DNA from: Alistipes sp.
Lineage (GTDB): Bacteria > Bacteroidota > Bacteroidia > Bacteroidales > Rikenellaceae
Length of the DNA stretch: 34,494 nt
NCBI GenBank assembly: GCA_017938765.1
Contig: JAGBAX010000013.1
Coordinates: 1 to 34,494, forward strand
Direction: 5' to 3'
Within the stretch, counting starts at the first letter, position 1. Each line of letters opens with the position of its first letter. The notes under the pieces were generated by a model that saw only the letters and a list, made by a program, of their open reading frames with translations, did not search any database and was not told the DNA's origin. A program made the position numbers and the translations under genes. Positions 9,277 through 28,398 of the stretch are shown one piece after another.

Positions 9277-9495
9277 ACAGACTTCGTCTGTGTGTTTATT
9301 CGGATTTAGATAGCTGCCGCAAGGCAGTGAAAGAGAAAATAGAGTCTAACACTCAAGTTTACTTGAAGGTGTAAAGACTCTATTTTTTATTTCAATAACT
9401 CGTAGAGTTATCCTAAATCCGCATCAGCACAGAAGCAAAACGAAGTTTTGCCTAAAGTCTTTTGGGTCACTTTTCTTCAGAAAAGGGACGGTACT
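9277..9495 (-). repeat. Multi-hairpin intergenic element, copy 1 (inverted relative to copies 2 and 3)
   Basis: Outer arms CGGATTTAG (9301-9309) and CTAAATCCG (9413-9421) enclose three hairpins: 9314-9327 (CTGCC, loop GCAA), a long central stem 9336-9347/9375-9386 with a nested inner stem and flanking A and T runs, and 9395-9411 (ATAACTC, loop GTA). Outside lie hairpins 9277-9291 (ACAGAC, loop TTC), 9435-9451 (GCAAAAC, loop GAA) and 9470-9485. It fills the convergent ilvE-mnmG gap; the central stem could act as a two-way terminator. The same architecture recurs at 25258-25479 and 28206-28398. Confidence 0.85.
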
Positions 9496-9501
9496 ATACA
9501 G

Positions 9502-9517
9502 CGTTCCACGTGGAACA
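9502..9517. other. parS-like site 2 (ParB-binding palindrome)
   Basis: CGTTCCACGTGGAACA has the same 14-base perfect palindrome as site 1. It ends at the base next to the mnmG stop codon (9518-9520, minus strand), so both sites touch the 3' end of a gene. The two sites are 1,274 bases apart. Confidence 0.8.
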
Positions 9518-11395
9518 CTATCTACCAAATCGCATCAGCAAGACATTGATATCGGCAGGAGATACGCCAGGGATTCTGGATGCTTGGGCAATAGTTTTTG
9601 GGCGTATTTTCTGCAATTTTTGGCGAGCCTCTATTGTTAGAGACTGCATTTTGCTGTAGTCAAAGTTCTCTGGTATTACAATATTTTCTAAACGATGTAG
9701 TTTTTCGGCAACGCTCTTTTCGCGTTCAATATATCCGCTATATTTAATCTCTATCTCTGCCTCTTCGATAATATCTTCGGTTATGCCGTTTGTTTTGACA
9801 AATTTTTTGAGTTTTGGAAGTACTGTTACAAGCTCGGCAAGAGTTATGTCGTTTCTTAGGGCGAGGTCAAAAATCTTCTTTCCCTGAGAAATTGGCGCTA
9901 AATTATGCGAAATTAAATAGTCTTGAATTTCGGATATTTTGACACTCTGTTCACGAGTGAATAAAATAAGCGAATTTAGAAGTCGTTTTTTTTCTGCGAA
10001 TTTTTGGTATCTTTCTTCAGAAATTAATCCCAATTCGTAACCAAGAGGCGTGAGTCTTTGGTCGGCATTATCCTGGCGGAGCAAAATTCTGTATTCTGCG
10101 CGCGAAGTAAACATACGGTACGGCTCGTCTACCCCCTTTGTCACAAGGTCGTCAATAAGTACGCCGATATATGCTTGGTCGCGACCCAGAACTACTGGCT
10201 CCTTGCCAGATATCTTGCGAACAGCATTTATTCCAGCAAGCAGTCCCTGTGCTGCCGCCTCCTCATATCCCGTTGTGCCATTTACCTGACCTGCGAGGTA
10301 GAGGTTTTCAACAGCCTTGCTCTCAAGCGAGTGCCAGAGTTGTGTTGGCGGGAAGTAGTCGTACTCAATAGCATATCCTGGGCGGTATACATGGGCATCC
10401 TCAAGACCTGCAATCTTGTGCAGAGCCTCAATCTGTATGTTGTATGGCAGGGAAGATGAGAAGCCGTTTAGATACATCTCATTTGTCGTAACTCCCTCAG
10501 GCTCAAGGAATAACTGGTGTTGGTCCTTATCTGCAAAGGTGCGCAACTTATCCTCTATGCTTGGGCAGTAACGAGGGCCGATACCTTGAATTGTGCCGTT
10601 AAATAGGGGAGAGTCCTCAAATCCTCGGCGCAGGGTGTCGTGTACCTCTTTAGAGGTGTAGACAAGGTAGCAGGGGAGCTGTTTTTTAACTGCCTCGGTG
10701 GTGTCGGAGAATGAGAATTTAGATGGTTTCTCGTCGCCATATTGAGGCTCCAGACGGCTGAAATCTACCGTGCGGGCATCTATGCGCACGGGTGTTCCCG
10801 TCTTCATTCTGCCCACCTCAAAGCCCACTTTTGTTAGGGACTCTGTAACACCGAAGCTCGCTGCATCGCCTGCCCTACCGCCAGTAGCGTTTTCCCTGCC
10901 GCAGTGCATAAGGCCAGAGAGGAATGTTCCCGCAGTAAGCACCACCGCGCTACACTGGAAAACCACCCCCATTTGCGTTTTTACACCCTTTACACGCACT
11001 TTGTCGCTACTATCGTCAAAGAGTATCTCCACTGCAGAATCCTGCCAAATATAGAGGTTTTCGGTGTTTTCTAACTCCTCGCGCCATAGTGCCGAAAAGC
11101 GAGACTTGTCACACTGCGCACGAGGCGACCACATTGCTGCTCCCTTGGAGCGGTTGAGCATACGAAATTGGATAGTAGATAGGTCTGTGATAATGGCTGT
11201 GCGACCACCTAATGTGTCTATCTCGCGCACAATCTGACCCTTTGCCACGCCACCTATAGCGGGGTTGCAAGACATAGAGGCAAACTTGGTCATATCCATC
11301 GTCAGCAGCAGTGTCCTTGCACCCATCCTTGCCGCTGCACTCGCCGCCTCACAGCCCGCGTGACCTCCTCCAATAACTATAATGTCGTATACCAT
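9518..11395 (-). CDS. mnmG: tRNA uridine 5-carboxymethylaminomethyl modification enzyme, FAD subunit
   Basis: MnmG (GidA) works with the GTPase MnmE to put the carboxymethylaminomethyl group on U34 of certain tRNAs. I start it at ATG 11395 (MVYDIIVIGGGHAG), 7 bases after ybeY ends, because the FAD-binding GGGHAG (9-14) is then at its normal place; an upstream ATG at 11419 would overlap ybeY. The 625-residue length is standard. Further marks are SMSCNPAIGGVAKG, GTFLSG, GRMKTGTPVRID, YLAGQVNGTTGYEEAAAQG and the C-terminal helical MnmE-binding domain. mnmG lies near the origin in many bacteria, which agrees with the adjacent parS site. It is the last gene of the pheS operon. Confidence 0.97.
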   Translation of the reverse strand: MVYDIIVIGGGHAGCEAASAAARMGARTLLLTMDMTKFASMSCNPAIGGVAKGQIVREIDTLGGRTAIITDLSTIQFRMLNRSKGAAMWSPRAQCDKSRFSALWREELENTENLYIWQDSAVEILFDDSSDKVRVKGVKTQMGVVFQCSAVVLTAGTFLSGLMHCGRENATGGRAGDAASFGVTESLTKVGFEVGRMKTGTPVRIDARTVDFSRLEPQYGDEKPSKFSFSDTTEAVKKQLPCYLVYTSKEVHDTLRRGFEDSPLFNGTIQGIGPRYCPSIEDKLRTFADKDQHQLFLEPEGVTTNEMYLNGFSSSLPYNIQIEALHKIAGLEDAHVYRPGYAIEYDYFPPTQLWHSLESKAVENLYLAGQVNGTTGYEEAAAQGLLAGINAVRKISGKEPVVLGRDQAYIGVLIDDLVTKGVDEPYRMFTSRAEYRILLRQDNADQRLTPLGYELGLISEERYQKFAEKKRLLNSLILFTREQSVKISEIQDYLISHNLAPISQGKKIFDLALRNDITLAELVTVLPKLKKFVKTNGITEDIIEEAEIEIKYSGYIEREKSVAEKLHRLENIVIPENFDYSKMQSLTIEARQKLQKIRPKTIAQASRIPGVSPADINVLLMRFGR

Positions 11396-11402
11396 CACTA
11401 CC

Positions 11403-11849
11403 CTACTTTTTGACTGCAAATTTTTGAGAAAACAACTCTAAATACTTATCCTCCTTGCTGTGCATAACAGCCTCAGTCTCAGGGGTTTTGTCGCCCTGGC
11501 CGCAGAGGTGTAACACCCCGTGAACAACTACTCGCAGCATCTCACATTCGGCCGTAGTGTTGTATATCTTTGCGTTATCTGTAACTGTCTGATAATCAAT
11601 GTAAATGTCGCCAGAAATGTAACCTTGTTCAAGGTTTGAGTAGTCAAAGGTTATAATATCTGTAAAGTAGTCGTGACCTACATAGTCAATATTCATCTGA
11701 CGGTGAACAGTCGATGGGCAGAAGATATAGTTTATCTCCCCTATTTGTAGGTTTCCCTCCTCTGTTGCCACCTCTCGCAGCCACTCTCTGATGGCTCTTT
11801 TGTGGCGTAGGCGGTAGTTGCACTCCTGACAGTAGTAATTGATATCCAT
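11403..11849 (-). CDS. ybeY: Endoribonuclease YbeY (rRNA maturation factor)
   Basis: YbeY is a zinc-dependent RNase acting in 16S rRNA 3'-end maturation and ribosome quality control. The 148-residue protein has the family segment NIDYVGHDYFTDIITFDY (53-70), GDIYID (80-85) and the metal motif HGVLHLCGQGDKT (110-122). H110 and H114 are conserved; the usual third histidine of HGxLHLxGYDH is missing, with D120/K121 there. I recall the same KDK-like variant in other Bacteroidetes, so it is likely natural. It starts 1 base after the EnvC-like gene and ends 7 bases before mnmG, so it belongs to the operon. Confidence 0.92.
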   Translation of the reverse strand: MDINYYCQECNYRLRHKRAIREWLREVATEEGNLQIGEINYIFCPSTVHRQMNIDYVGHDYFTDIITFDYSNLEQGYISGDIYIDYQTVTDNAKIYNTTAECEMLRVVVHGVLHLCGQGDKTPETEAVMHSKEDKYLELFSQKFAVKK

Positions 11850-11850
11850 A

Positions 11851-12960
11851 CTATTTGAAAAGGTTGCTTGCTTTCATTGTCACTTTTGGATTTGGAGAGT
11901 GTATAGCAAACAGAATCTTATACTCCACATCCATTGTTGATGGGTTTACCATCGTAGCTATTGTACCAATTTTCTGGTTCTTAAGCACTTTGTCATCCCT
12001 CTTTACACACACTGCAGAGAGGTTTGCGTATGAAGAAATATACTCTCCATGAGCAATGTAGACGTCGTACTTGTTGTTGATTTTGTTGCGCGAAATACGC
12101 ACCACCTTACCCTCGTATATAGAGTTGATGTTTGCCCCTTTGCTACCCACAATCTCGGCGGTATTGGCATTGTAGCGAACTACCCTACCACCCGCTACAG
12201 GCAGTTTTAGATGCCTTGTAGAGCTGCTAAAACTACCACCCGACTTGTTACCCTTTGTTAGCTTGCGAAGCTCTGCAATGGCACTATTCAGGCGCTTTTC
12301 GTGTTCTGCCATAGAGGCCTGCACGCTCTTCTCCTGCTTTGTCATCTTGCGGATAGTGGCCTTGGCAAGATCACGCTCCTCGCGCATCTTTGCCCTCTGA
12401 CGGTCCAGCTTCTTCTTTGCTTGGGCAACCTCCTCGCGCTTTGCAGCAAGCGTCTGTCGCTCCTTCTGCACGGCGTTGCGCGTTGTTGTTAGCTGAGTTA
12501 TCTGCTCTTTGCGGTATATAGTCGCTGTGCGCAACGAGGCTATGCGACGGGCAAAATCAAGGGCAGACGAAGATGAGAAAATATAAGCTAAAGTGTTGTT
12601 ATTACGGTAGTTACGATACGCCTCACGATACATCTCACTACAGCTGCGCTCTAACTGAGCCACAGAGACAGATAGCTCCCCTACTCGTTTTTCTGCCGCT
12701 GTAATATCGCGACCCAACTGCTTTATCTGCTTGTCGCGCGCCGCTATAAGGGCATTTCGCTTCTCAATCTGTCGCGCTAAAGAGTTTACCAACTTCTGCT
12801 TTGAGGATTTATTGCTCTGGAGCTTTGCCAACACCTTCTCTTCACGCTCTATGCTCGCCTCAAGGTTGTCTATAGTCTTGCGCAGCTCAGCCTCACTCTG
12901 TGCTTTGAGTGGTGTCTGTGCTGTAAGGATAAGCAGTATAAGAAATAGAAGTTTTTTCAT
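11851..12960 (-). CDS. EnvC-like murein hydrolase activator (coiled coil plus degenerate LytM/M23 domain)
   Basis: The 369-residue protein has a signal peptide (about 1-20, ending TPLKAQ), a long coiled coil (about 22-235, rich in K/E/R/Q) and a C-terminal LytM/M23 fold (about 245-369). In active M23 enzymes zinc is held by HxxxD and HxH. Here the first site reads GSKGANINSIYEGKVV and the last reads VEYKILFA, so the zinc residues are absent; only IAHGEY keeps a histidine. That fits EnvC/NlpD-type activators, which switch on amidases rather than cut peptidoglycan. It shares one base with the TPR gene's stop (TAATG) and precedes ybeY by one base. It should act in the periplasm during cell division. 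Confidence 0.87.
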   Translation of the reverse strand: MKKLLFLILLILTAQTPLKAQSEAELRKTIDNLEASIEREEKVLAKLQSNKSSKQKLVNSLARQIEKRNALIAARDKQIKQLGRDITAAEKRVGELSVSVAQLERSCSEMYREAYRNYRNNNTLAYIFSSSSALDFARRIASLRTATIYRKEQITQLTTTRNAVQKERQTLAAKREEVAQAKKKLDRQRAKMREERDLAKATIRKMTKQEKSVQASMAEHEKRLNSAIAELRKLTKGNKSGGSFSSSTRHLKLPVAGGRVVRYNANTAEIVGSKGANINSIYEGKVVRISRNKINNKYDVYIAHGEYISSYANLSAVCVKRDDKVLKNQKIGTIATMVNPSTMDVEYKILFAIHSPNPKVTMKASNLFK

Positions 12961-14666
12961 TATTTAACAGCTTTTTGAGTCTCTAATCTCGCTTTCTGAG
13001 CCTCTATGCGGCTCTCTATCTTCTCTGCATCTGCGCCCCTCTCAAGGGCTTTGCGCCAGTATGTCTGTGCAAGGAATGTGCTACCCAGAGCATCAAGGAT
13101 ATCTCCATAGTGGAGTGCAAGCTCGGCAGAGTTGTCCGTATCAAAGCTCATTGCCTGCTGCATATACCTCTTCGCCTCATCATACTGACCCATCTTGTAG
13201 TATACCCAAGCAAGGGTGTCAAGATATGTAGCATTGTTTTGCGATAGGGCGGTGGCTCTTTGCGCCATCTGTAGTGCCTGCTTGAGGCTTTTGCCCGTCA
13301 CGCTGAGGTGGTAGGCAAAGTTGTTGAGCACCATAGCATTCTGCGGGTCAAAACTTAGAGCTTTGTAGTAGGCAGAGTAGGACTTTTTAGTCTCGCCCAG
13401 CTCGTGGTATTGGTCGCCAATGTTTCCCCACAAAGAGCTCTTTGCCTTACTATCCTTAGCATGCTCAAGGGCGGCTCGCAAGGTCTCTATAGCCCCTCGG
13501 TTGTCACTCTTGCGCATCTGTAGCCACGCCTTGAGATTCCAGAAATCCTCAGTAGTAGGGTAGTGGTGTATGCCCATGTCGGCATATACCGCCACCGAAT
13601 CCATACGACCTAAGTGTTGCTCAATGCTGATAATACGCCCAATCTCCTGCTCATCTGGCTTTGAACGGTCAAGTCGCTCTTTGAGAAGCACTAACGCCTC
13701 TTCAACTCGGTTACCCGCGATAAGGTGGCCGATATATGAGTCAACAACCTTCGCATTCTCTGGATGAAGCTGATAGAGTCGTGTAACCAATGGCTCTATC
13801 AGCAGGAAGTTCTTGCGGTAAAAGTCCCTTTTAGATGTAACACTCTCGACAATAGCAATCTTTGACGATAGGGGAACGCTCGGCAAATCAATGATATTGC
13901 GCCAAACAAGCAGCATCTCGGTATATCGCTTGCGACGGTCCAAGAAGCTGGCATAGCTAAACCAAGAGTCGGCATTTGTCTTGTCAAGGTTTATGGCAGT
14001 GTTGTATGTGGCATCAGCCAGAGAGTCGGCTCCCATTACAGCATATACCTCAGCCAGAGCAATCTGATTTGCAGGGTCATATGGAGCCTCATTTACCAAC
14101 TCTACAGCACTCTTTAGAGCCTTCTCATTATCGCCACTCTCAAGATAAATCTGCTGGCGCATACGGCTGAAAAACTCAATCTTACCAAGTCGCACCTCTG
14201 CCGAGTCAAGAACAGCAATAGCCTTGTCGTTCTGCTTTGTCATCATGTGCAGTATGGCAAGCAATCGGAAGTGGTCGGGGTCATCGCCTCTCTTTACAAG
14301 GGTCTGCAGATAGTGCATCGCGCGCGAATACTTTTTCGCCCTCAGACTGCGCTCTGCCGCCTCTTGTAGCAGGTGGTGGTTTGTGCTATCAGCCCTTACT
14401 GCTCGCTCGGCGGCTCGCCACGCAACCTCTGGATTGCTCTCTATGCGGGCAAGAAGATAGGATGCGGGCATATAGTTTGAGTCCGCCTTAAGTGCCTCAT
14501 TAGTAAGGCGAATAGCAGAAACAGTATCGCCATAGATTGTCAATCGCTTTACAGCATCTGTATATAGTTTAAGAGGCTTGCTTGTTCGCGCAACAGCGCC
14601 CTGAGGTATAACTATACCGCAGAGTGCGACTGCCGCCGCAAAAAGATATAGAGCAAGCCTTCTCAT
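12960..14666 (-). CDS. TPR-repeat protein, exported
   Basis: This 568-residue protein has an N-terminal signal (about 1-26, MRRLALYLFAAAVALCGIVI) and then tetratricopeptide repeats over nearly all its length. The clearest lie in the C-terminal third: SSLWGNIGDQYHELGETKKS, AMVLNNFAYHLSVTGKSLKQ and ATYLDTLAWVYYKMGQYDEA. TPR arrays are protein-binding scaffolds, here most likely in the periplasm or at the outer membrane. It is 3 bases after pheS and overlaps the EnvC-like gene by 1 base. In other Bacteroidetes I recall a TPR protein standing next to an EnvC-like peptidase gene, so a joint envelope or division role is a fair inference. The partner is unknown. Confidence 0.85.
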   Translation of the reverse strand: MRRLALYLFAAAVALCGIVIPQGAVARTSKPLKLYTDAVKRLTIYGDTVSAIRLTNEALKADSNYMPASYLLARIESNPEVAWRAAERAVRADSTNHHLLQEAAERSLRAKKYSRAMHYLQTLVKRGDDPDHFRLLAILHMMTKQNDKAIAVLDSAEVRLGKIEFFSRMRQQIYLESGDNEKALKSAVELVNEAPYDPANQIALAEVYAVMGADSLADATYNTAINLDKTNADSWFSYASFLDRRKRYTEMLLVWRNIIDLPSVPLSSKIAIVESVTSKRDFYRKNFLLIEPLVTRLYQLHPENAKVVDSYIGHLIAGNRVEEALVLLKERLDRSKPDEQEIGRIISIEQHLGRMDSVAVYADMGIHHYPTTEDFWNLKAWLQMRKSDNRGAIETLRAALEHAKDSKAKSSLWGNIGDQYHELGETKKSYSAYYKALSFDPQNAMVLNNFAYHLSVTGKSLKQALQMAQRATALSQNNATYLDTLAWVYYKMGQYDEAKRYMQQAMSFDTDNSAELALHYGDILDALGSTFLAQTYWRKALERGADAEKIESRIEAQKARLETQKAVK

Positions 14667-14669
14667 CGT

Positions 14670-15710
14670 TTACAGTACGCTGTCAAACTGGTGGAGGAAG
14701 CGAACATCGTTCTCAAAGTAGAGACGAAGGTCCTTAACTCCAAACTTGAGCATTGCAATACGCTCAACTCCCATACCAAAGGCGAAGCCAGAGTACTCGT
14801 TAGGGTCTATGTTGTTGGCAATAAGCACGTTAGGGTCTACCATACCGCAACCCAAAATCTCCAACCAACCAGTACCCTTACATACTGGGCAACCCTTACC
14901 ACCACAGAGGTTACAAGATACATCAACTTCGGCAGATGGCTCTGTGAATGGGAAGTATGATGGGCGCATACGAATCTGAGTATTCTCGCCAAAGAGCTCC
15001 TTGGCAAAGTAGAGCAGCGACTGCTTGAGGTCTGCAAACGAGACATTCTTGTCAATATAAAGACCCTCAATCTGGTGGAAGATGCAGTGTGCGCGGTAAG
15101 AGATTGCCTCGTTACGGAACACACGACCAGGGCAGATTACGCGGATAGGTGGCTTCTGACGCTCCATAGTACGCACCTGAATAGAAGATGTGTGGGTGCG
15201 CAGCAGAATATCCTTCTCGCTTGGCTCTGACGACTGCTTCTCAATGAAGAATGTATCCTGCATATCGCGAGCAGGGTGCTCTGGTGGGAAGTTGAGAGCA
15301 GAGAATACGTGGTGGTCATCCTCAATCTCTGGACCATCAGCAATAGTGTAGCCCAGACGAGCAAAAATCTCACAAATCTCATTCTTCACAAGCGAGATAG
15401 GGTGGCGAGAGCCGAGCTGCTCAGCACTACCAGGGCGAGTCATATCGTCAATCTTCACATCAGCAGTAGCCTTTGCCGCAGCCGCCTCACGCAGAGAGTC
15501 AATCTTTGCGAGTATTGCCTGCTTGAGGGCGTTGATTTTCTGTCCATATTCACGCTTAAGCTCTGGCGCAACACTCTTAAATTGCTCCATCAGAGCTGTA
15601 AGCTCACCCTTTTTTCCAACCATTTTGACGCGGAAATCCTCGATTTCGGCAGCATTCTCAGAGTTAAACTGTTCTACTCTGGTCAATAAGTCTTTAATTT
15701 TGCTATCCAT
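14670..15710 (-). CDS. pheS: Phenylalanyl-tRNA synthetase alpha subunit
   Basis: PheS is the catalytic subunit of the class II PheRS heterotetramer. The 346-residue protein has the N-terminal coiled coil (1-90), motif 1 around GSRHPISLVKNEI, THTSSIQVRTM, motif 2 CPGRVFRNEAISYRAHCIFH and motif 3 GMGVERIAMLKFGVKDLR near the end. Between motifs 2 and 3 lies a four-cysteine segment (CNLCGGKGCPVCKGTGW) that looks like a zinc knuckle; I recall it in Bacteroidetes PheS. pheT is not in the window, so the subunits are encoded apart. It heads the leftward operon with the TPR, EnvC-like, ybeY and mnmG genes. Confidence 0.97.
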   Translation of the reverse strand: MDSKIKDLLTRVEQFNSENAAEIEDFRVKMVGKKGELTALMEQFKSVAPELKREYGQKINALKQAILAKIDSLREAAAAKATADVKIDDMTRPGSAEQLGSRHPISLVKNEICEIFARLGYTIADGPEIEDDHHVFSALNFPPEHPARDMQDTFFIEKQSSEPSEKDILLRTHTSSIQVRTMERQKPPIRVICPGRVFRNEAISYRAHCIFHQIEGLYIDKNVSFADLKQSLLYFAKELFGENTQIRMRPSYFPFTEPSAEVDVSCNLCGGKGCPVCKGTGWLEILGCGMVDPNVLIANNIDPNEYSGFAFGMGVERIAMLKFGVKDLRLYFENDVRFLHQFDSVL

Positions 15711-15721
15711 TATGATTATGT

Positions 15722-15752
15722 TTTGTATTTTCTCTAAAAAACCCTACCTTTA
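15722..15752 (+). promoter_or_regulatory. Promoter of the patatin/barrel gene
   Basis: TTTG (15722-15725), a 19-base spacer and TACCTTTA (15745-15752) fit TTTG-N19-TAnnTTTG with one mismatch at the last base. The predicted leader is about 50 bases to ATG 15810. Confidence 0.5.
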
Positions 15753-15786
15753 CACTCGTAAATAGGTATAATGGGTAAGTAAGGGA

Positions 15787-15794
15787 CAAAAATA
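15787..15794 (-). promoter_or_regulatory. -7 promoter box (TATTTTTG) of the pheS operon
   Basis: TATTTTTG on the minus strand fits TAnnTTTG and ends 76 bases before the pheS ATG. The -33 candidates are not at standard distance. It lies in the 99-base divergent gap, only 16 bases before the ATG of the rightward patatin gene. Confidence 0.4.
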
Positions 15795-15809
15795 CAAAAA
15801 AATTAGCAA

Positions 15810-18113: not shown

Positions 18114-18118
18114 CAGCC

Positions 18119-18146
18119 GTTGGCCGTTGGCTGTTGGCCATTAGCT
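18119..18146 (-). repeat. Heptamer array, four units (RGCYAAY, reverse orientation)
   Basis: Four tandem 7-base units (18119, 18126, 18133, 18140) read GTTGGCC, GTTGGCT, GTTGGCC and ATTAGCT on the plus strand, the reverse complement of RGCYAAY. It starts 6 bases past the patatin stop. Bases 18133-18146 are complementary to the two-unit array at 18263-18276 with one mismatch, so the two could pair. Confidence 0.7.
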
Positions 18147-18163
18147 GGCTGACGCAGAACAGA

Positions 18164-18199
18164 GAATTTAGGGAGGTTAAGGAAGTTAATGAGATTAGT
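18164..18199. repeat. Nonamer array, four degenerate units (GARRTTARK)
   Basis: Four 9-base units, GAATTTAGG, GAGGTTAAG, GAAGTTAAT and GAGATTAGT, follow each other exactly. Variation is mostly A/G. A related nonamer array lies at 28430-28492. There is no long reading frame here and no known role. Confidence 0.55.
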
Positions 18200-18228
18200 G
18201 ATTTTGCGCTAAACTTTTACTATTACAC

Positions 18229-21156: not shown

Positions 21157-21884
21157 TAACAAAGGCCGAAATACAATCTATTCGCGCACTGGCCGACAAG
21201 CGAGGGCGAGATGAGCAGCGACTCTTTATTGCCGAGGGGGAGAAACTTGTTGCGGAACTGCGCACCTCAACTCTGCGTGTAAGGAGGATATACACCACAA
21301 AGCCACTCTGGGCAGAAGCCGAGGTTATTGCCGAAAAGGATATGGAGCGTATCTCGCAACTTAAGACGGCAAATAATGCCCTTGCAGTGGTTGAGTGCCC
21401 GAAGTACGATATTGCTGCTGTAGACCCAACAAAAAACCTCGTTCTTGCTCTTGATAGGGTGCAGAACCCAGGTAACTTGGGTACTATTATCCGCCTTGCC
21501 GACTGGTTTGGCATTACAGATATCGTCTGCTCAGAGCAGAGTGCCGACTGCTTCAATCCCAAGGTTGTTCAGGCAACTATGGGGGCCATTATCCGCGTGA
21601 GGGTACACTATACAGACCTTGCAGGGTGGCTTGAGTGTCAGCACAATAGGGGAGTGAACATCTACGGAACATTCCTTGATGGGCAGAATATCTATAAGGC
21701 AGACAAGAGCCGTTGTGGCGTTATTGTTATGGGAAATGAGGGTCAGGGAATCAGCGCCGAGTGCGAAAAGAGCGTCACCCACCGCCTCTATATCCCGCCA
21801 TATCCGGCAGATAGGAGTGGCTCGGAGTCGCTAAATGTAGCCATTGCCACAGCAATAACCTGTTCGGAGTTTAGACGGGGATAA
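21153..21884 (+). CDS. SpoU/TrmH-family RNA 2'-O-methyltransferase
   Basis: This 243-residue protein is a SPOUT enzyme methylating a ribose in rRNA or tRNA with S-adenosylmethionine. The N-terminal substrate-binding part (about 1-85) resembles the L30e-like domain. The three SpoU motifs are intact: DRVQNPGNLGTIIRLADWFG (101-120), VIVMGNEGQGIS and SGSESLNVAIATAI near the end. The target nucleotide cannot be predicted. It is coupled to rnz by a 4-base overlap, so two RNA-processing enzymes are made together; the pcrA start follows 55 bases later. Confidence 0.92.
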   Translation: MITKAEIQSIRALADKRGRDEQRLFIAEGEKLVAELRTSTLRVRRIYTTKPLWAEAEVIAEKDMERISQLKTANNALAVVECPKYDIAAVDPTKNLVLALDRVQNPGNLGTIIRLADWFGITDIVCSEQSADCFNPKVVQATMGAIIRVRVHYTDLAGWLECQHNRGVNIYGTFLDGQNIYKADKSRCGVIVMGNEGQGISAECEKSVTHRLYIPPYPADRSGSESLNVAIATAITCSEFRRG

Positions 21885-21939
21885 GCTGTTGCAACGTTCA
21901 TCAGCAAGCTGTCGCCCAGCAGAAAAACAGAGAAGTAAG

Positions 21940-24327
21940 ATGAGTAAAATATTGGAAGGACTGAATCCGGCTCAGAGAGAGGCGGTGATACACTATAACA
22001 CCCCGTCGCTAATTATTGCTGGTGCGGGGTCGGGAAAGACGCGTGTGCTCACTTCGCGCATAGCCTATATGCTTGAGCAGGGTGTTCGCGCGGAGAATAT
22101 CCTTGCGCTAACATTTACCAAGAAGGCGGCAAATGAGATGCGCGAGCGTATTGATAGCATGGTTGGAACAGCTGCCCGAAGAATCAACATGGGCACTTTC
22201 CACTCTATCTTTGCCCGTATACTGCGCGAGAATGCCGAGGCGATAGGCTTTAAGCGAGAGTTTACAATCTATGAGACCACAGACTCTAAAAACCTTATCA
22301 AGACCATCATCAAGGAGCGAAATCTTGATGACAACAAGTATAAGCCCGGCCTTATCCACTCGCGCATATCTACGGCAAAAAATAGCCTTATAACTCCTGG
22401 TGCTTATGCGGCAAATGCAGCTCTTACGGGCGAGGATCGTAGCATGCAGATTCCAGAGTTTTCTAATATCTATATAGAGTACTGTCGCCGTTGCAAGCAG
22501 AATAATGCATTGGACTTTGACGATTTGCTGTTGCAGACAAATATTCTGTTGCGCGACTGCCCAGAGATTTTGCGCAGATATCAGGAGCTGTTTCAGTATA
22601 TCCTTGTGGATGAGTATCAGGATACGAACTACGCTCAGTATCTAATCGTGCGCCGACTCTCGCAGCTGCACGGCAGGGTGTGTGTCGTTGGCGACGATGC
22701 GCAGAGCATCTACTCCTTCCGAGGTGCAAAGATTGAGAATATTCTCTCTTTCCAGCGCGACTATCCATCAGCAGAGGTCTTCAAACTTGAGCAGAACTAT
22801 CGCTCTACGCAGACCATTGTAGATGCGGCAAACTCTGTTATCAAGCACAACGCTCGCCAGATGCAGAAGCAGTGCTTCTCGGCAGCCGAACAGGGCGAGA
22901 AAATCCGTATCTTCAAGGCCTATACAGACCGTGAGGAGGCGGAGCTTGTGGTAACGGACCTTCGTGACCGTGTGCGCGAGGGTGGCGACGACTGGCAGAG
23001 CGCAGCAATACTCTATCGTACTAATAATCAGTCGCTTGTGCTTGAGGAGGCACTACGCCGAAAAGGTATACCATATAAGATTTATAAGGGCAACTCATTC
23101 TACGACCACGCCGAGATTAAGGATTTGCTCGGTTATTTCCGCCTTGTGATAAATCCAAAGGACGACGAGGCCTTTAAGCGCGTGATAAACACCCCTGCGC
23201 GCGGTATTGGCGATACTACTGTTGAGCGCATAGCCGCCATAGCCCAAGAGCGCGACTGCTCTATGTGGGAGGCTATAGATACCCTTGTCGGCACAGTTCC
23301 AAATGGAAGTGTTGAGCGTGCGATAATAAAGAAGGTTACCGACTTTGTCTCACTTATCCGCTCCGTTGCCCTTGAGCGCGAGCAGAAGAGTCTCTACGAC
23401 TTCGGCCTTGAGGTGGCTACTCGCTCTGGGCTGCTCTCGCACTACCGACTGCAGAACACTCCAGAGGCTAAGTCTGCCGTAGATAATATTGAGGAGCTGC
23501 TCAATACAATGCAGGAGTATACAGAGCGCACCGAGGCTGATATTCGTCAGGGCGAGCGAGAGGAGTTTGACCGCCCGACGGTTGAGGAGTGGCTTCAGAA
23601 TGTTATGCTGATGACCGATATGGATAATGAGGACCCAGAGAGTAATAATAAGGTTACACTTATGACCGTCCACTCGGCAAAGGGCCTGGAGTATAAATAT
23701 GTCTATATCGTTGGCTGTGAGGAGAATCTCTTTCCAGCGATGATGTCGCTTGAGTCTCTTGAGGGACTTGAGGAGGAGCGACGACTATTCTATGTGGCAC
23801 TCACGCGCGCCAAAACCCTCGCCACACTCACTTGTGCCGATATGCGCTTCCGCTGGGGACAGATGAACTTCTCTACGCCAAGCCGCTTTTTAGCAGAGAT
23901 AGACGCCCAGTATGTAGAGAGCGACTTTGACCTGCGTGGCACGCGCCGCAACCGCGAGCTTAATATTGACGAGGGCGAGGATGCAATAACCACCCTGCGC
24001 CGCCGCTACGATGTGCGCAGTCAGCAGAAGCGAAGCCAAAATCAGCCATTCCGCCCGCAGCCTCAACCTAAGCCGCAGCCACAAGAGACACCAAAGCCGA
24101 GCTATAATACAGAGCGTATGCGCCGTGTGGAGAGTAGCGCGTCTGGTGCTACTACAACCCAGCCATGCGCCTACACAGTAGGGCAGAGAGTCAATCACCC
24201 CAAGTTCGGCAATGGAACTATCGTGGCTATAGAGGCGTTGGCTACAGACCATAAGCTAAAGGTTGACTTTGGAGCCTTTGGCGAGAAGACACTGCTTGCA
24301 AAATTGGCTAAACTAACTGTGCTATGA
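21940..24327 (+). CDS. pcrA: UvrD/PcrA-type ATP-dependent DNA helicase
   Basis: This superfamily 1A helicase unwinds DNA 3' to 5' in repair and clears proteins from replication forks. I choose ATG 21940 (MSKILEGLNPAQREAV), with the purine-rich AGAGAAG just before it; a TTG at 21889 would add 17 unlikely residues. The 795-residue protein has Walker A AGAGSGKT (27-34), motif Ia LALTFTKKAANEM (55-67), Walker B VDEYQDTN (223-230), motif III GDDAQSIYSFRG, motif V MTVHSAKGLEY and motif VI VALTRAK. After a Q/P-rich linker (RPQPQPKPQPQETPKPS) comes a Tudor-like C-terminal domain (HPKFGNGTIVAI), as in PcrA. pcrA versus uvrD naming is a matter of choice. Confidence 0.94.
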   Translation: MSKILEGLNPAQREAVIHYNTPSLIIAGAGSGKTRVLTSRIAYMLEQGVRAENILALTFTKKAANEMRERIDSMVGTAARRINMGTFHSIFARILRENAEAIGFKREFTIYETTDSKNLIKTIIKERNLDDNKYKPGLIHSRISTAKNSLITPGAYAANAALTGEDRSMQIPEFSNIYIEYCRRCKQNNALDFDDLLLQTNILLRDCPEILRRYQELFQYILVDEYQDTNYAQYLIVRRLSQLHGRVCVVGDDAQSIYSFRGAKIENILSFQRDYPSAEVFKLEQNYRSTQTIVDAANSVIKHNARQMQKQCFSAAEQGEKIRIFKAYTDREEAELVVTDLRDRVREGGDDWQSAAILYRTNNQSLVLEEALRRKGIPYKIYKGNSFYDHAEIKDLLGYFRLVINPKDDEAFKRVINTPARGIGDTTVERIAAIAQERDCSMWEAIDTLVGTVPNGSVERAIIKKVTDFVSLIRSVALEREQKSLYDFGLEVATRSGLLSHYRLQNTPEAKSAVDNIEELLNTMQEYTERTEADIRQGEREEFDRPTVEEWLQNVMLMTDMDNEDPESNNKVTLMTVHSAKGLEYKYVYIVGCEENLFPAMMSLESLEGLEEERRLFYVALTRAKTLATLTCADMRFRWGQMNFSTPSRFLAEIDAQYVESDFDLRGTRRNRELNIDEGEDAITTLRRRYDVRSQQKRSQNQPFRPQPQPKPQPQETPKPSYNTERMRRVESSASGATTTQPCAYTVGQRVNHPKFGNGTIVAIEALATDHKLKVDFGAFGEKTLLAKLAKLTVL

Positions 24328-25238
24328 CCCCGCTCGTCTCGGTCTGTATGACCACCTATAACCACGAGAAGTATATCTCACAGGCTATTGAGAGTGTGCT
24401 GTGCCAGCGCACAACCTTTAGCTTTGAGGTCGTTATAGGCGAGGATTGCAGCACCGACAACACCCTTGCCATTTGCCGTCAGTACGAGGCACAACACCCC
24501 GATATTGTGCGTGTAGTAACCTCTGAACACAACATAGGTATGCACCGTAACTACCGCCGAACTATTGAGGCGTGTCGCGGTAAGTATATAGCTATGTGCG
24601 ACGGCGACGACTGGTTTTCGGACGAGAATAAACTGCAGATGCAGGTAGAGATGATAGAGAAGAGCTCTGCCGATATGTGCTATACCCGCTCTCTTCGTCG
24701 TGGCGAGGATGGTAGTAGTGCAATATACCCAGAGTGTAGCCTGCACACCACGCTGGATGATATGCTTGCACTCAACACCGCCGAGAACTGCACAACTCTT
24801 GCACTCAAAAGCAAGATTTTGCAGTATTATGGCGAGGTTAAGCCAGAGTCTAAGGGTTGGCTTACGGATGACCTGCCGATGTGGCTCTGGTTTGCCGCTA
24901 CGCAGAAGATAGTAGCCATAGACCGCGTAACGGCAGTCCACCGCGTGCTTGCCACAAGCGTGAGCCATAGCCATATGTGGGAAAAACAACTTGACTTCTG
25001 CTACTCACTTGACACTATAATGCTCTGGTTTGACGAGCATTATAACAATAATAAACTCAACCACTTCCTCGCCAGCCGCCGCCAAAACCGCGCCCTCTGG
25101 CTGCTGTCCTATCACGGGCCAATATCAAAATACCTCAAACTCTGGTGGCACACCTGCCACGAACACCCACGACTGCTCCTTAACCTCGCCCCCTACGGTC
25201 TGCTCGCCAAAAAACTCCTCTGGCGTATGTGGCAGTAG
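24324..25238 (+). CDS. Family 2 glycosyltransferase
   Basis: The 304-residue protein starts with the GT-A fold typical of GT2: PLVSVCMTTYNHEKYISQAI (3-22), EDCSTDNT (40-47) and the metal/nucleotide DXD site in MCDGDDWF (91-98). A basic, hydrophobic C-terminal tail (about 250-304) may attach it to the membrane. Sugar donor and acceptor cannot be told. It overlaps the pcrA stop by four bases (ATGA), so it is read with a DNA helicase, an odd pairing; no other polysaccharide gene is nearby. A general envelope-sugar role is inferred from the family only. Confidence 0.9.
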   Translation: MTPLVSVCMTTYNHEKYISQAIESVLCQRTTFSFEVVIGEDCSTDNTLAICRQYEAQHPDIVRVVTSEHNIGMHRNYRRTIEACRGKYIAMCDGDDWFSDENKLQMQVEMIEKSSADMCYTRSLRRGEDGSSAIYPECSLHTTLDDMLALNTAENCTTLALKSKILQYYGEVKPESKGWLTDDLPMWLWFAATQKIVAIDRVTAVHRVLATSVSHSHMWEKQLDFCYSLDTIMLWFDEHYNNNKLNHFLASRRQNRALWLLSYHGPISKYLKLWWHTCHEHPRLLLNLAPYGLLAKKLLWRMWQ

Positions 25239-25257
25239 GCTACACAGTAGGCTGACG

Positions 25258-25479
25258 CGAACTGCCCGCTTTTTCGCGAAAAAGCAGGGCGTGCAAAAAG
25301 CTCTTGGCAAAACTCCGTTTTGCTTGTGTGCTGATGCGGATTTAGGATAGCCTTACGGCTATTACGACAAAAAATAGAGCCATTCACTTTCAAGCAAGCT
25401 TGAGTGAGGCTCTATTTTTCATCGTACTCTCTGCGAGAGTTTTCCTAAATCCGAATAAACACAGACAGACGGAGTCTGT
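25258..25479 (+). repeat. Multi-hairpin intergenic element, copy 2
   Basis: Order of parts: hairpin 25268-25285 (GCTTTTT, loop CGCG); 25307-25323 (GCAAAAC, loop TCC); outer arms CGGATTTAGGA (25337-25347) and TCCTAAATCCG (25443-25453), enclosing 25347-25362 (ATAGCC, loop TTAC), the central stem 25371-25381/25408-25418 with nested TCAAGC/GCTTGA, and 25426-25440 (ACTCTC, loop TGC); then 25465-25479 (ACAGAC, loop GGA). It lies in the 387-base gap between the GT2 gene and blaI. The A and T runs around the central stem could make it a terminator. Confidence 0.85.
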
Positions 25480-25489
25480 ACCGCTGAAA

Positions 25490-25517
25490 AGCTAATGGCT
25501 AATGGCCAACAGCTAAT
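25490..25517 (+). repeat. Heptamer array, four units (RGCYAAY)
   Basis: AGCTAAT, GGCTAAT, GGCCAAC and AGCTAAT stand in exact tandem, 10 bases after the last hairpin of copy 2. All differences between units are transitions. The same four-unit form occurs at 18119-18146 and 28548-28575. Confidence 0.7.
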
Positions 25518-25526
25518 GGTAATTTT

Positions 25527-25556
25527 CCTCTAACAACGTTAGAGGAATAATTTTTT
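25527..25556 (+). terminator. Perfect 8-bp hairpin with T-run upstream of the blaI operators
   Basis: CCTCTAAC (25527-25534) and GTTAGAGG (25538-25545) enclose AAC and are followed by AATAA and six T. It could end transcripts coming from the GT2 gene. The palindrome itself is also operator-like, so a regulatory use for blaI cannot be excluded. Confidence 0.55.
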
Positions 25557-25558
25557 AT

Positions 25559-25625
25559 CTAAAATTTTAGTAGAAAAAATTTGTTCATCTAAATTTTTAG
25601 TTATAACTTTGTACTAAACTTTTAG
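25559..25625. promoter_or_regulatory. Three BlaI-type operator dyads (CTAAANTTTTAG)
   Basis: CTAAAATTTTAG (25559-25570), CTAAATTTTTAG (25589-25600) and CTAAACTTTTAG (25614-25625) are near-identical 12-base dyads. They lie before, between and after the promoter boxes at 25580-25611; the third ends at the base before ATG 25626. This is what an autorepressed BlaI/MecI gene should show, with the dyad sequence differing from the staphylococcal TACAnnTGTA form. Binding is inferred. Confidence 0.75.
25580..25611 (+). promoter_or_regulatory. Promoter of the blaI-blaR operon
   Basis: TTTG (25580-25583), a 20-base spacer and TAACTTTG (25604-25611) match the consensus. Transcription should begin about 10 bases before ATG 25626, inside the third operator, so bound repressor would block it. 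Confidence 0.75.
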
Positions 25626-26015
25626 ATGAAAGACTTTATGAGCAAGGATTTACAGACACTTACACGCGGCGAGGAGGAGGTAATGCAGATTCTCTGGCAG
25701 CTGGGAGAGGCATCGGTGGCGCAGATTATTGAGCATATTCAGGAGCCCAAGCCAAAGTATACAACCGTAGCGACATTTATCAAGATATTGGAGAACAAGG
25801 GCTTTGTAGCACATAGGGCAGAGGGTCGCGGATTTTGTTACTACGCTGTTGTTAAGAGGGAGGAGTATGCCTCTGGGGTGGCAAAGAGTCTGCTAGATAG
25901 TTATTTTGGTGGCTCTCTTTCGCAGATGGTCTCTTTCTTTGGTAAGAAGGAGGATATCTCTGTTGCCGAGATGGATGAGATACTTGAGATTGTTGAACAG
26001 ATAAAGGGTAAGTAG
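25626..26015 (+). CDS. BlaI/MecI-family transcriptional repressor
   Basis: BlaI proteins are dimeric winged-helix repressors that are inactivated when the partner M56 peptidase cleaves them. The 129-residue protein shows the family core LTRGEEEVMQILWQLGEASV, then the recognition-helix region KPKYTTVATFIKILENKGFV and the wing EGRGFCYYAVVKREEY; the C-terminal helices (about 85-129) form the dimer part. ATG 25641 (MSKDLQTLTRG) is an alternative start five residues in; neither has a clear ribosome site. It ends one base before the M56 gene. Three dyads over its own promoter indicate autorepression. The signal need not be a beta-lactam. Confidence 0.92.
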   Translation: MKDFMSKDLQTLTRGEEEVMQILWQLGEASVAQIIEHIQEPKPKYTTVATFIKILENKGFVAHRAEGRGFCYYAVVKREEYASGVAKSLLDSYFGGSLSQMVSFFGKKEDISVAEMDEILEIVEQIKGK

Positions 26016-26016
26016 T

Positions 26017-27252
26017 ATGCGCCAAGTTGTTATATACCTTATTGAGGTTATTGTTTGTAGTGGCGTATTGGCAGCTCTCTACTCGCTACTGATTGAGCGC
26101 AAGGTGGACTACCTATTTGCTCGACTGTTTCTTCTCTTCTCAGTTGTTCTGTCAGCTGTAATACCTATTATAAATATACCCGTTTGGCAGGCAACGATAC
26201 TACCACAACAGACAGTGACGGCAGTCGTAGGGACTGGTGCCGAGGTTGTGCCGAGTGCTATGGAGGCGGTTTCGGGCTTCAATTTTGTGGCTCTATTGTG
26301 GGTTGTTTATGGCTTGGGTGTGGCGTTATGTGCGGGAAGTATTGTTCTTCAGTTTGTAAATGTTCTTCGCATACGAAGGGGTGGTAGTGTGACAACATTT
26401 GAGGGTATTAATATTGTCCGCTCACAGCAGAATATTGCCTCTTTTTCGCTCTTTAAGACGATATACATAGGTAACAACACCGCTGATAGTGATTTGCCGA
26501 CTATTGTGGCGCACGAGCGTAGCCATATTGTCCACAGACACTCTGTAGAGAGGGTTGTTATGGAGGTTTTCAAGGCTCTGCTTTGGTGGAACCCGTTTGT
26601 GTGGATTGCTTCGCGCCGTCTTGTTGAGGCTCACGAGTTTGAGGCTGATAGCGATGTTATAGGTAGTGGCTGTGATGCAAAACAGTATGTTACAACACTA
26701 TTAAAGCACCTATTTGGCTATAGTCCGGAGATAGCCAACGGTCTTCATAATTCATTAACTAAAAAACGACTAAAGATGATTCTTGAAAACAACAGTGGCA
26801 GATACGCTCTGCTACGCAAAGTGGCTGTTATTCCGGTATTGGGAGTTCTGTTTACTCTCTTCTCGCTCACAACAAAAGAGGCTGTGGCTCAAGATGTTCC
26901 GCAGAGTGATGTGGTACAAGAGAGTGTAGAGATTAACGATTACAAAGACTTCTATCGTTGGGTTGTAACTAATGTTCACTATCCCGCTGAGGCAAAAGAG
27001 CAGAATTTGTCAGGTACGGTAATAGCCTCACTGACAATAGATACAGAGGGCAATGTTAAGGATGTAAATATTGTAAAGTCCGATAGTGAACTCTTCACAA
27101 ATGAGGTGAAGCGAGTACTTGCCAAAGCTCCTGCGTGGAAGCCATTTGTCAAAGATGGCAAAAGTGTTGAAGTTAAGTATATGATGCCTGTAAACTTTGT
27201 CTTGGATGATGCAAAGAGCGAAGGAGTAGGCGGTGTGGTGGTAAAAAAATAG
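26017..27252 (+). CDS. BlaR1-like M56 membrane peptidase with C-terminal TonB domain
   Basis: The 411-residue protein has membrane helices at about 5-25, 35-55 and 88-115, then a cytoplasmic M56 zinc-peptidase part with HERSH (166-170, an HExxH form) and the third-ligand region EAHEFEAD (204-211). A further helix (about 269-286, VAVIPVLGVLFTLFSL) leads to the periplasm, where a TonB C-terminal-like domain (about 310-395: HYPAEAKEQNLSGTVIASLT, DGKSVEVKYMMPVNFVL) stands in place of the penicillin-binding sensor of BlaR1. It should sense an envelope signal and cleave BlaI. What it senses is unknown. It is 1 base after blaI and 4 bases before the aspartyl protease gene. Confidence 0.92.
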   Translation: MRQVVIYLIEVIVCSGVLAALYSLLIERKVDYLFARLFLLFSVVLSAVIPIINIPVWQATILPQQTVTAVVGTGAEVVPSAMEAVSGFNFVALLWVVYGLGVALCAGSIVLQFVNVLRIRRGGSVTTFEGINIVRSQQNIASFSLFKTIYIGNNTADSDLPTIVAHERSHIVHRHSVERVVMEVFKALLWWNPFVWIASRRLVEAHEFEADSDVIGSGCDAKQYVTTLLKHLFGYSPEIANGLHNSLTKKRLKMILENNSGRYALLRKVAVIPVLGVLFTLFSLTTKEAVAQDVPQSDVVQESVEINDYKDFYRWVVTNVHYPAEAKEQNLSGTVIASLTIDTEGNVKDVNIVKSDSELFTNEVKRVLAKAPAWKPFVKDGKSVEVKYMMPVNFVLDDAKSEGVGGVVVKK

Positions 27253-27256
27253 TGCT

Positions 27257-28198
27257 ATGAAAAACTTTATTCAACTCGTCGTAGCAATTCTCTTTGTGGC
27301 GACAGCCTGCTCAATTGCAAATCAGAAAACAGTGGCGCAGGTTGAGCCTAAACTGCCAGAGGGGGCTGTGGAGATGAGATATGAGCGCCATCTGCACTTT
27401 GATGTACTGCTGCGTGACTCAATACCCGCGCGGATGATTTTTGATTCGGGAAGTAGCAATCTGCTGTTGGACTCTACATTCTACACGACTACATTTGGCA
27501 AGAACAATAGTTTGCGCCGCGCAATGCTCTCAGGTGCGGGCGGTGGCTTTCAGCTAACAACGCTTGATGCAAGCCGCTGGAGCTATAGCATTGGCGAGCT
27601 GTCGCACACCGAGCCGATGGCTGTTGTTATGGATTTGCGAAAGATTGTGGGCGATGGTGTAGATGGTCTGTTTGGACTGCCATCTATGTTAGGCAAGCGC
27701 GTGGAGTTTAACTATGCTGTCGGCTATATGCGCATCCTAAAGCCAGAGGAGAAAATCACAGAGGATTTTACGGCCATCAAGTGTTCTTGGCTAAAGGATA
27801 AGGACCGTATTATTGTCCCTCTAACTGTCACATTTGCAGATGGGTATGCTCTTACAGGAAACTTCCTTGTGGATACGGGTATGCCCGATGCATTGGCTCT
27901 GGTTAGCGCAACAACTGCCCGCCTAAAGAGTGGCGGACACCTTGTGGGCGCGCAGAGCACAACCGTTGAGGTGGGAGGCGTTGGTGGCTCACGCACAGAG
28001 AGCTATGTGACAGCAAAACAGATTACTATCGGAGGTAAAACAGTGAATAGTGTCCGCATCTCCTGCTCGGAAAACAAGCAGGGAGCAATGACAGATAGTA
28101 GATTTGATGGCCTTGTCGGCAACGCCCTACTCGCGAACTTTGATGTTATCTTTGACTTTGAAAATTGGGTGATGTACCTCCGCCCAAACACAAGGTAA
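27257..28198 (+). CDS. Exported retropepsin-like aspartyl protease (probable lipoprotein)
   Basis: The 313-residue protein begins with a signal ending in a lipobox-like FVATAC, with C18 as possible lipid site. Two aspartyl-protease half-sites are seen: IFDSGSSNLLL (61-71, D63) and FLVDTGMPDAL (203-213, D206). Each lies in a repeated-fold half with an ILG-like later segment (VDGLFGLPSML and FDGLVGNALL), so it is a single-chain, two-domain enzyme of the PF13650/PF13975 kind. Place of action would be periplasm or cell surface. As the third gene of the blaI operon (4-base gap) it is probably under BlaI control, and may be the output of the system. Confidence 0.88.
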   Translation: MKNFIQLVVAILFVATACSIANQKTVAQVEPKLPEGAVEMRYERHLHFDVLLRDSIPARMIFDSGSSNLLLDSTFYTTTFGKNNSLRRAMLSGAGGGFQLTTLDASRWSYSIGELSHTEPMAVVMDLRKIVGDGVDGLFGLPSMLGKRVEFNYAVGYMRILKPEEKITEDFTAIKCSWLKDKDRIIVPLTVTFADGYALTGNFLVDTGMPDALALVSATTARLKSGGHLVGAQSTTVEVGGVGGSRTESYVTAKQITIGGKTVNSVRISCSENKQGAMTDSRFDGLVGNALLANFDVIFDFENWVMYLRPNTR

Positions 28199-28205
28199 AC
28201 TTGCG

Positions 28206-28398
28206 AGTACCGCGCCTTTTTGCAAAAAGGCGCCCCAAAAACTCTTGGAAAAACTGCGTTTTTCTTCTGTGCTGATGCGGATTTAGGATAGCTTTACAGC
28301 TATTACGATAAAAAAGAGAGATATGCTCTTGCTCAAGTAAACTTGGCAAGCAATCTCTCTTTTCTCTCGTACTCTCTCCGAGAGTTTCCCTAAATCCG
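28206..28398 (+). repeat. Multi-hairpin intergenic element, copy 3
   Basis: A perfect palindrome 28212-28233 (arms GCGCCTTTTTG and CAAAAAGGCGC) is followed by 28248-28264 (GAAAAAC, loop TGC). Outer arms CGGATTTAGG (28278-28287) and CCTAAATCCG (28389-28398) enclose 28288-28303 (ATAGCT, loop TTAC), the central stem 28312-28322/28353-28363, and 28371-28385 (ACTCTC, loop TCC). The last ACAGAC hairpin of copies 1 and 2 is lost here. It starts 8 bases after the aspartyl protease stop, within a 701-base gap to the next firm gene. Confidence 0.85.

Follow-up and report, generated by a model that had tools for sequence, protein, structure and literature searches.

A dispersed cloverleaf-folding DNA repeat found behind gene stop codons in gut bacteria related to Alistipes

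Small structured repeats shape the ends of bacterial genes, and for most of them neither the mover nor the benefit is known. The BOX, RUP and SPRITE repeats of Streptococcus pneumoniae are small, structured and overrepresented between convergent genes, SPRITE being terminator-like and BOX modular, according to the available part of one study (PMC3049150). The palindromic REP, BIME and REPIN repeats lie mostly downstream of genes, and the CGTC group of REPs apparently has no dedicated transposase, as described in the accessible part of another (PMC3733652). A 132 bp palindromic candidate structured RNA of Bacteroidetes in human microbiomes, HMP2_4205, is a predicted terminator in the portion of its source open to us (PMC8040213). 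Here we describe an element from a 34,494-nt stretch of Alistipes sp. (contig JAGBAX010000013.1 of assembly GCA_017938765.1; the whole stretch is called the window below), in which an earlier note had pointed to three copies of a multi-hairpin element. It belongs to an apparently undescribed family of ∼120-base DNA repeats that fold into a cloverleaf, in gut bacteria related to Alistipes; no description of this cloverleaf repeat was found in the open-access literature.

As far as sequence comparison can tell, these repeats are, by a modest preference over all else, small non-coding and non-autonomous interspersed elements that are specialised for the 3' ends of genes and are terminator-like and mosaic in build. 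The earlier note had offered a mobile element, a structured RNA or a DNA structure site. That choice is now narrowed to a dispersed, terminator-like gene-end element, and a REP with a present-day Y1 or RAYT (REP-associated tyrosine transposase) enzyme is unsupported.

Comparison of the copies establishes a conserved cloverleaf, in which an outer stem (CGGATTTAGG/CCTAAATCCG) encloses hairpin C, a long arm D and hairpin E, and in which D carries A-run/T-run flanks and a bulge on its 5' side near the loop. The core is 111–127 nt long. In the window the cores lie at 9301–9422 (−), 25336–25453 (+) and 28277–28398 (+), at the three places where copies had been noted. Hairpins A and B usually precede the core; from sequence reading they stand 5' of it in all three window copies, and a small hairpin F stands 3' of it in copies 1 and 2. 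An nhmmer search gave 139 places, of which 3 incomplete ones and 7 without recognisable arms (several of them from genome G006, with other arms) were dropped before cores were counted. The cloverleaf is the minimum-energy fold of the bottom strand, the one antisense to the abutted gene, in 104 of the 114 unique cores of sequence family 1 and of the top strand in 87, compared with 19 of 570 dinucleotide shuffles. The same holds for 15/15 cores of genus g60 on both strands, for 21/23 (bottom) and 22/23 (top) of the G027 type, for 6/7 and 7/7 from G006, and for 3/4 and 4/4 from G117/G048. Folding z-scores were −6.55 (top) and −8.64 (bottom) for copy 2, −7.15 for copy 3 and −7.60 for copy 1 (single strands).

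It is the fold that is kept rather than the sequence, as the earlier note had read from three copies. Over 38 diverse cores (alignment A1) 95.0% of the pairing cells are paired, against 26–44% when the partners are slid by 1–3 columns, and 18 of the 36 pairs show changes on both sides. Covariation is thus also found in a larger alignment: its score (0.350 vs 0.155 in shuffles) was reached by 0/500 shuffles, while one of five measures, further pair types, was not above the shuffles (474/500 reach the observed value). The outer arms are near-constant in family 1 and change elsewhere, to CGGATTGAGG/CCTCAATCCG in copy L353 of G006 and, by eye, to CGGGTTTAGG/CCTAAACCCG in 8/15 cores of g60, where the original pair occurs in 1/15 and a mismatch at that place in 6/15. 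The outer arms and paired arm changes quoted in the note are present in the window with two corrections: copy 1 has TCTAAATCCG in place of CCTAAATCCG as its right arm, its outer stem having one mismatch, and the apex of copy 3 contains a T.G pair (TCAAGT/ACTTGG). Every variant hairpin is itself paired. Many of the differences, however, seem to come from the exchange of entire hairpins out of a common pool, and therefore the copy differences are not independent substitutions in place. A hammerhead, considered on account of a CTGATG motif, was rejected, as both sides of the motif appear to pair with each other.

The element is dispersed over several contigs of its own genome, a 2.1 Mb assembly in 29 contigs that is 87% complete. 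An exact search for CGGATTTAGG found 58 sites there, as against 2 for the reversed 10-mer used as a control, and these represent 26 complete pairs, 5 arms with a changed partner and 1 solitary site. The genome of the window thereby holds 31 complete elements with paired arms, well beyond the three first noticed, together with a diverged copy (L048) and a fragment at a contig end (L050). No reading frame is conserved, again as noted before: a frame is open through A, B and the core in 0/31 of these copies on the top strand and in 10/31 on the bottom strand. A DNA-uptake signal was rejected as an explanation of the 10-mer, since only 1 of its 58 sites lies outside elements.

Short length, inverted arms, dozens of copies and presence or absence between sister species are also what would be expected of an ordinary miniature inverted-repeat transposable element (MITE), that is, a deletion derivative of an insertion sequence (IS) moved by the transposase of that IS, with a position that results only from selection against harmful insertions. 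The available part of the pneumococcal study likewise has BOX, RUP and SPRITE gathering between convergent genes (PMC3049150). Against this origin, which we regard as unlikely, the 87% complete assembly showed nothing larger with exactly these arms, 57 of the 58 arm sites being in elements and one standing alone; the hairpins co-vary, and between families the arms do so too.

The position of the element is more closely defined than tolerance alone predicts. Mapping against mechanically called open reading frames (ORFs) of 100 aa or more establishes that it follows one gene's stop codon, for the most part in the space between convergent genes. The nearest upstream ORF is on the same strand in 103/121 distinct copies. 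When the copies are grouped into 92 site clusters, 49 are convergent (+,−), 16 are (+,+), 7 are (−,−) and none is divergent (0/72 sites with both neighbours called), one neighbour being uncalled in 20. The core follows a same-strand gene at 78/92 sites, at a median of 89 nt from the stop codon (interquartile range (IQR) 81–107, n = 78), and the distance from the core to the convergent gene has a median of 225 nt (IQR 181–307, n = 63). Such closeness to one stop codon only is a further point against a MITE placed by selection alone. At least 12 of 15 short-type copies, which are without hairpins A and B, lie 4–40 nt past the stop codon. The stop codon TAG was also considered as a target, but the excess was too weak (47/89 abutting stops vs 47/110 at other own and sister loci and 128/417 at named loci).

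The build of arm D recalls a terminator. In family 1, AAAA occurs in the 5' side of D in 107/114 cores and TTTT in the 3' side in 110/114; these runs are weaker in other families, for instance in 16 and 17 of 22 cores, or 12 and 9 of 13. The bulge on the 5' side of the top strand measures 2 nt in 97/114 cores of family 1 (68 of these have it five pairs away from the loop) and 1 nt in 15/15 cores of g60. At element-free sites the place of the element is often taken by plain terminators. Behind mnmG, a locus recovered from 30 of the 58 genomes of the genus that gave a match, the genome of the window carries the element, the related element of G003 shares the D apex and differs in its outer arms, and several other genomes have, by eye, plain hairpins with A- and T-runs. 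The closest sister, G028 (protein 97% identical), has a different repeat there, a stretch related to the dispersed repeat CCAACGCTGCGATTAAGCCGAGAGCAA..., which also occurs 3' of several copies of the element, e.g., L021, L027 and L040.

Eight further sites for comparison between sister species were drawn from own sites without a homologue, which biases the share of sister loci with an element downwards; one of them, L037, yielded no sister locus. The other seven gave 24 sister loci; the element is present at 4 of them (in one case truncated by a contig end), the related G003 element at 1 and neither at 19. Sequence comparison thus establishes that a given site can hold the element in one sister species and lack it in another, and the element therefore behaves as a dispersed one. 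A scan with strict terminator criteria over the ∼200 nt that follow the gene was positive at 9/19 element-free sister loci, at 0/5 loci with an element and in 8/480 shuffles. At the L022 site the element lies directly behind a terminator that is also present in G120. At two G028 loci an apparent half of hairpin A is joined to later sequence, probably by deletion. Because of the build of D and the plain terminators at many sister loci we take the element to be terminator-like. Arm D would then terminate transcription intrinsically in both directions, so that a copy following a gene would do no harm or be useful, which could explain both the position and the plain terminators at element-free sites.

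Homologous sites, as sequence comparison establishes, can have differing interiors between unchanged outer 10-mer arms. We defined a positional homologue by a match of ≥300 nt within 125–900 nt upstream, so that other repeats in that region may underlie a few of the 40 pairs. For 19/31 own copies, a homologous upstream region adjoins an element in another sampled genome. In 32/40 pairs the positional homologue of a core was less similar to it than was a copy from another site (in any sampled genome). The interior was <80% identical in 26/40 pairs, and in 24 of these 26 both 10-mer arms were identical. Window copy 2 and its G028 counterpart, for example, have an interior identity of 0.77 with genes 92% identical, and L034/L167 have flanks of 0.98 and 0.83 with an interior of 0.63. 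The simplest account of the differing interiors is renewal in place, in which copies would be replaced by short-tract recombination between copies.

The same pairs could reflect site-specific cassette exchange, in which a recombinase swaps the interior between invariant inverted arms and the whole forms a mobile hairpin cassette system. Family-1 arms are constant while interiors at the same site differ (L034/L167, window copy 2/L075, L156/L034 and L023/L138), and other families have their own arms, as such a system would have it. Change is not confined to the interior, however: hairpins A and B differ despite a kept interior in L024/L058 and L173/L039, and D alone differs between L064 and L163. 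The data are equally explained by ordinary short-tract recombination within a large set of similar copies. We consider a dedicated exchange decidedly unlikely. D also looks inverted in L144 and L281.

Several observations weigh against a terminator-like, mosaic gene-end element. Hairpins C and E and the outer stem are superfluous for a terminator alone, the bulge of arm D varies between families, and 10/19 element-free loci had no strict terminator match. By eye, a second plain terminator stands beside the element at own sites L022, L025 and L037, and therefore the element is not always the sole terminator. In family G113 the cloverleaf is the minimum-energy fold in only 4/13 (bottom) and 5/13 (top) cores, and the top strand of the related G003 element folds into one long hairpin. 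At the 24 sister loci of the seven sites, inspected by eye, whole spacers differ, with neither a target duplication nor a clean empty site seen; that no duplication was seen may also count against an ordinary MITE. A changed interior with both flanks well kept was found in just 3 and 4 of the 40 pairs by two criteria (5 pairs in total, among them window copy 2/L075 and L034/L167), and exchange confined to the arms is therefore rarely demonstrable. Part of the differing interiors could stem from elements that inserted anew, independently, at one gene end.

The two strands of the element are not equivalent. The bottom strand is the more stable one in 114/129 cores (duplicates included) and in 36/40 cores of other families. 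In the 104 three-hairpin folds of this strand, E has a C-GNA-G loop in 70 and a C-GNRA-G loop in 21 (91/104), C has a loop of either type in 63, and D has a G-CUUG-C loop in 48. The imbalance suggests the reading of just one strand, in folded form, as RNA or single-stranded DNA. Because of its better folding and its C-GNA-G and C-GNRA-G loops, the strand antisense to the abutted gene would more likely be the one read as a single-stranded cloverleaf.

Strand-specific loops (E in 91/104, D in 48/104), the better folding of that strand and covariation could also mean a structured RNA, either a trans-acting small RNA or a 3' untranslated region (UTR) element made from the antisense strand, its DNA copies having been spread by recombination. 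We hold this to be fairly improbable. GNA loops are very stable in DNA too. The 3' flank, where that strand would have its promoter, consists of several unrelated repeat types in the genome of the window, and dozens of copies with gain and loss would be odd for an RNA gene.

A covariance model of the core (R1) found cores in 33/180 genomes of the genus and in 38/200 genomes of the family, from 6/22 genera, the genome of the window being included in both. Copy counts per genome are lower bounds, with at most 20 (genus) or 18 (family) candidates scored per genome; at least 13 matches were found in 12 genomes of the genus survey and at least 18 in three genomes of genus g60. Among the matches listed for the arm pattern in named genomes, Alistipes and Rikenellaceae metagenome-assembled genomes (MAGs) predominate, and many of these listed MAGs come from the guts of sheep, goat, cattle and roe deer. 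The pattern had 0 matches in viral contigs. Other sequence families of the same build, with arms such as CAGCCTTTTGG, TTAGCCTTTCG, CAAATCTC and GCGGGGTTTGG, came to light when 14 genomes were examined more deeply. On 40 loci of these families R1 scored up to 68 bits, and a sequence-only model of the same alignment (R2) reached E ≤ 1 in 29/40 with a best score of 33 bits; as the loci were picked with R1, only the comparison between the two models counts.

No family known to us fits, in agreement with the earlier note. The whole window had 0 Rfam matches at the gathering score, and the cores of 11 loci had sub-threshold matches only (best MIR6135, 35.5 bits vs a threshold of 99); the single match above threshold on these loci was a tRNA outside the L041 core. 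Relatives outside Rikenellaceae were sought among 20 stretches with the arm pattern, which proved to be mostly long simple hairpins with other interiors and were rejected. The matches listed there come from Desulfobacterales, Alphaproteobacteria, Halomonas, Oscillospiraceae and another Bacteroidales MAG. Because the interiors differ and are mostly simple hairpins, we take the common 10-bp arm to be selected by the pattern itself. Desulfobacterales genomes have a palindromic repeat of another kind, CTGATTATAACGGATTTAGG...CCTAAATCCGTTATAATCAG, whose interiors vary (L086, L117, L131, L143, L153 and others).

Hairpins with asymmetric bulges, strand asymmetry and the location downstream of genes that is reported for REPs (PMC3733652, available part) would be compatible with a REP/BIME-like element that is mobilised by a Y1 transposase (RAYT or IS200/IS605) acting on single-stranded hairpins. 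The core of 111–127 nt with three hairpins, however, compares with a palindrome of 20–40 bp, and the transposase domain PF01797 was found in 0/14 element-rich and 1/14 other genomes, while the control was positive in 5/14 named genomes. We therefore rate such an origin as highly improbable; a present-day Y1 mover is close to refuted apart from the incompleteness of MAGs, and an ancient enzyme since lost is possible. Two other movers were rejected on similar surveys. The DEDD transposase domain PF01548, expected for an IS110/bridge-RNA system, occurs in 0/17 element-rich and 2/14 element-poor genomes, and RVT_1, expected for a reverse-transcriptase or group II intron partner, in 6/17 and 7/14, respectively, without association.

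A bolder possibility, which we consider unlikely, is that the cloverleaf cassette is a new kind of mobile unit. It would colonise and replace the 3' UTRs of genes and be recognised as a folded single strand, and a dedicated enzyme would exchange its interior hairpins at fixed gene-end sites while the inverted arms stay invariant, each lineage having an arm sequence of its own. If the change of interiors between constant borders is enzymatic, it would point to an undescribed recombination system. Few such repeats are under so strong a selection for the fold with so free a sequence. Dozens of copies per genome, a single fold shared by several sequence families across at least two well-stocked genera, and gene ends at which one sister species has the element and another lacks it together offer a natural experiment on the replacement of gene ends and terminators.

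The three window copies adjoin genes of different kinds. Copy 1 follows the stop codon of mnmG (gidA, 9518–11419, −; Pfam GIDA, 2.6e-156), copy 2 that of a family 2 glycosyltransferase gene (24324–25238, +; Pfam PF00535) and copy 3 that of an aspartyl-protease-like gene (27257–28198, +; Pfam PF13650), so that no function is common to the three. In copy 1 (all features on the − strand) the arms are CGGATTTAGG at 9412–9421 and TCTAAATCCG at 9301–9310. Sequence and fold together place its hairpins B (9435–9451, GCAAAAC TTC GTTTTGC), C (9395–9411, ATAACTC/GAGTTAT) and E (9314–9327, CTGCC TTGC GGCAG) and its long arm D (9328–9394, with A-run/T-run flanks and apex TCAAGTAAACTTGA). Hairpin A, of the GTC..GAC type, lies behind the mnmG stop codon at 9466–9489 according to sequence reading and module comparison, and the 3' hairpin F (9277–9291, ACAGAC GAA GTCTGT) rests on sequence reading.

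In copy 2 (+) the arms are at 25337–25346 and 25444–25453. Hairpins A (25264–25290, GCCCGCTTTTT/AAAAAGCAGGGC), C (25347–25362, ATAGCC/GGCTAT) and E (25427–25439, CTCTC TGC GAGAG) are placed by sequence and fold and F (25466–25478, CAGAC GGA GTCTG) by sequence reading; hairpin B is at 25307–25323 (GCAAAAC TCC GTTTTGC), and arm D at 25363–25426, with apex TCAAGCAAGCTTGA and a 2-nt bulge on the 5' side. In copy 3 (+), with arms at 28278–28287 and 28389–28398, sequence and fold place all five parts: A (28212–28233, GCGCCTTTTT/AAAAAGGCGC), B (28248–28264, GAAAAAC TGC GTTTTTC), C (28288–28303, ATAGCT/AGCTAT), D (28304–28371) and E (28372–28384, CTCTC TCC GAGAG). Between copies 2 and 3, at 25545–25630, repeated motifs of the TCTAAA/TTTAGT type stand upstream of a BlaI/BlaR1-like gene pair (25626–27252) and are, by eye, candidate BlaI operators.

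Other repeats and motifs were seen around the elements. A TGTTCCACGTGGAAC palindrome lies directly behind mnmG in the window (9503–9517), and we take it to resemble the parS consensus of ParB; a GTTCCnCGnnGAAC-type site occurs in 27/30 orthologous mnmG loci (L185–L214), with two or more in 21. A second structured repeat of ∼127 nt has arms TTTTGTCGTCA/..ACGACAAAAT, one long stem and GTAC..GTAC near its tip, and its stems differ yet pair; the scanned loci hold 19 distinct strings of it, both strands counted (e.g., L019:1775–1902, L013:1681–1807 and L014:1724–1850). The repeat CCGACGCTG.. GAGAGCAGAGACTGCT..GCAGGCTTTGCCGA.. stands inside or beside hairpin B in L063, L082, L122 and L089. In g60, tandem units like hairpin A (GCTTTTTGTAAAAAGC) lie upstream of the core in L343, L344, L348 and L350, as would be expected if A were a module in its own right. 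In G006 (L351, L352) two oppositely oriented cores lie ∼75 bp apart, an arrangement found on two contigs.

Known systems resemble the element in part. BrickBuilt of Porphyromonas gingivalis is reportedly an example of a prokaryotic MITE. Prokaryotic MITEs, as set out in the available part of a review (PMC10969869), share with it the short length, inverted arms, many copies and stable folds; here, in contrast, no target duplication was seen at the sister loci read, the own assembly showed no larger element with such ends, and the hairpins (between families also the arms) change in a compensatory manner. REP, BIME and REPIN repeats are likewise palindromic and mostly downstream of genes (PMC3733652, available part), but measure 20–40 bp against a core of 111–127 nt, and a search of 14 element-rich genomes for the Y1 enzyme found none. 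Since neither an autonomous element with matching ends (in the own assembly) nor a Y1 enzyme (in those 14 genomes) turned up when sought, we file the element as a structured interspersed repeat and not as a MITE or REP. Integron attC sites were considered for their place behind stop codons; the copies here are dispersed over several contigs. HMP2_4205 is similar in length, palindromic, a predicted terminator and from Bacteroidetes, on a comparison by description with the accessible part of its source (PMC8040213). BOX, RUP and SPRITE, also compared by description only, are interspersed and strongly structured, are overrepresented in the spacers of convergent genes and have a modular or terminator-like build (PMC3049150, available part); the element described here has a four-way cloverleaf, several sequence families, a tight position behind one stop codon and differing interiors at homologous sites. 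As far as tested, neither these repeats nor REP and BIME match it in size, transposase or cloverleaf. Bidirectional intrinsic terminators share the A-rich 5' side, stem and T-rich 3' side of arm D, and sister loci often have plain terminators of this kind; in the element described here this arm lies inside a cloverleaf with further conserved hairpins, which is dispersed as a repeat family.

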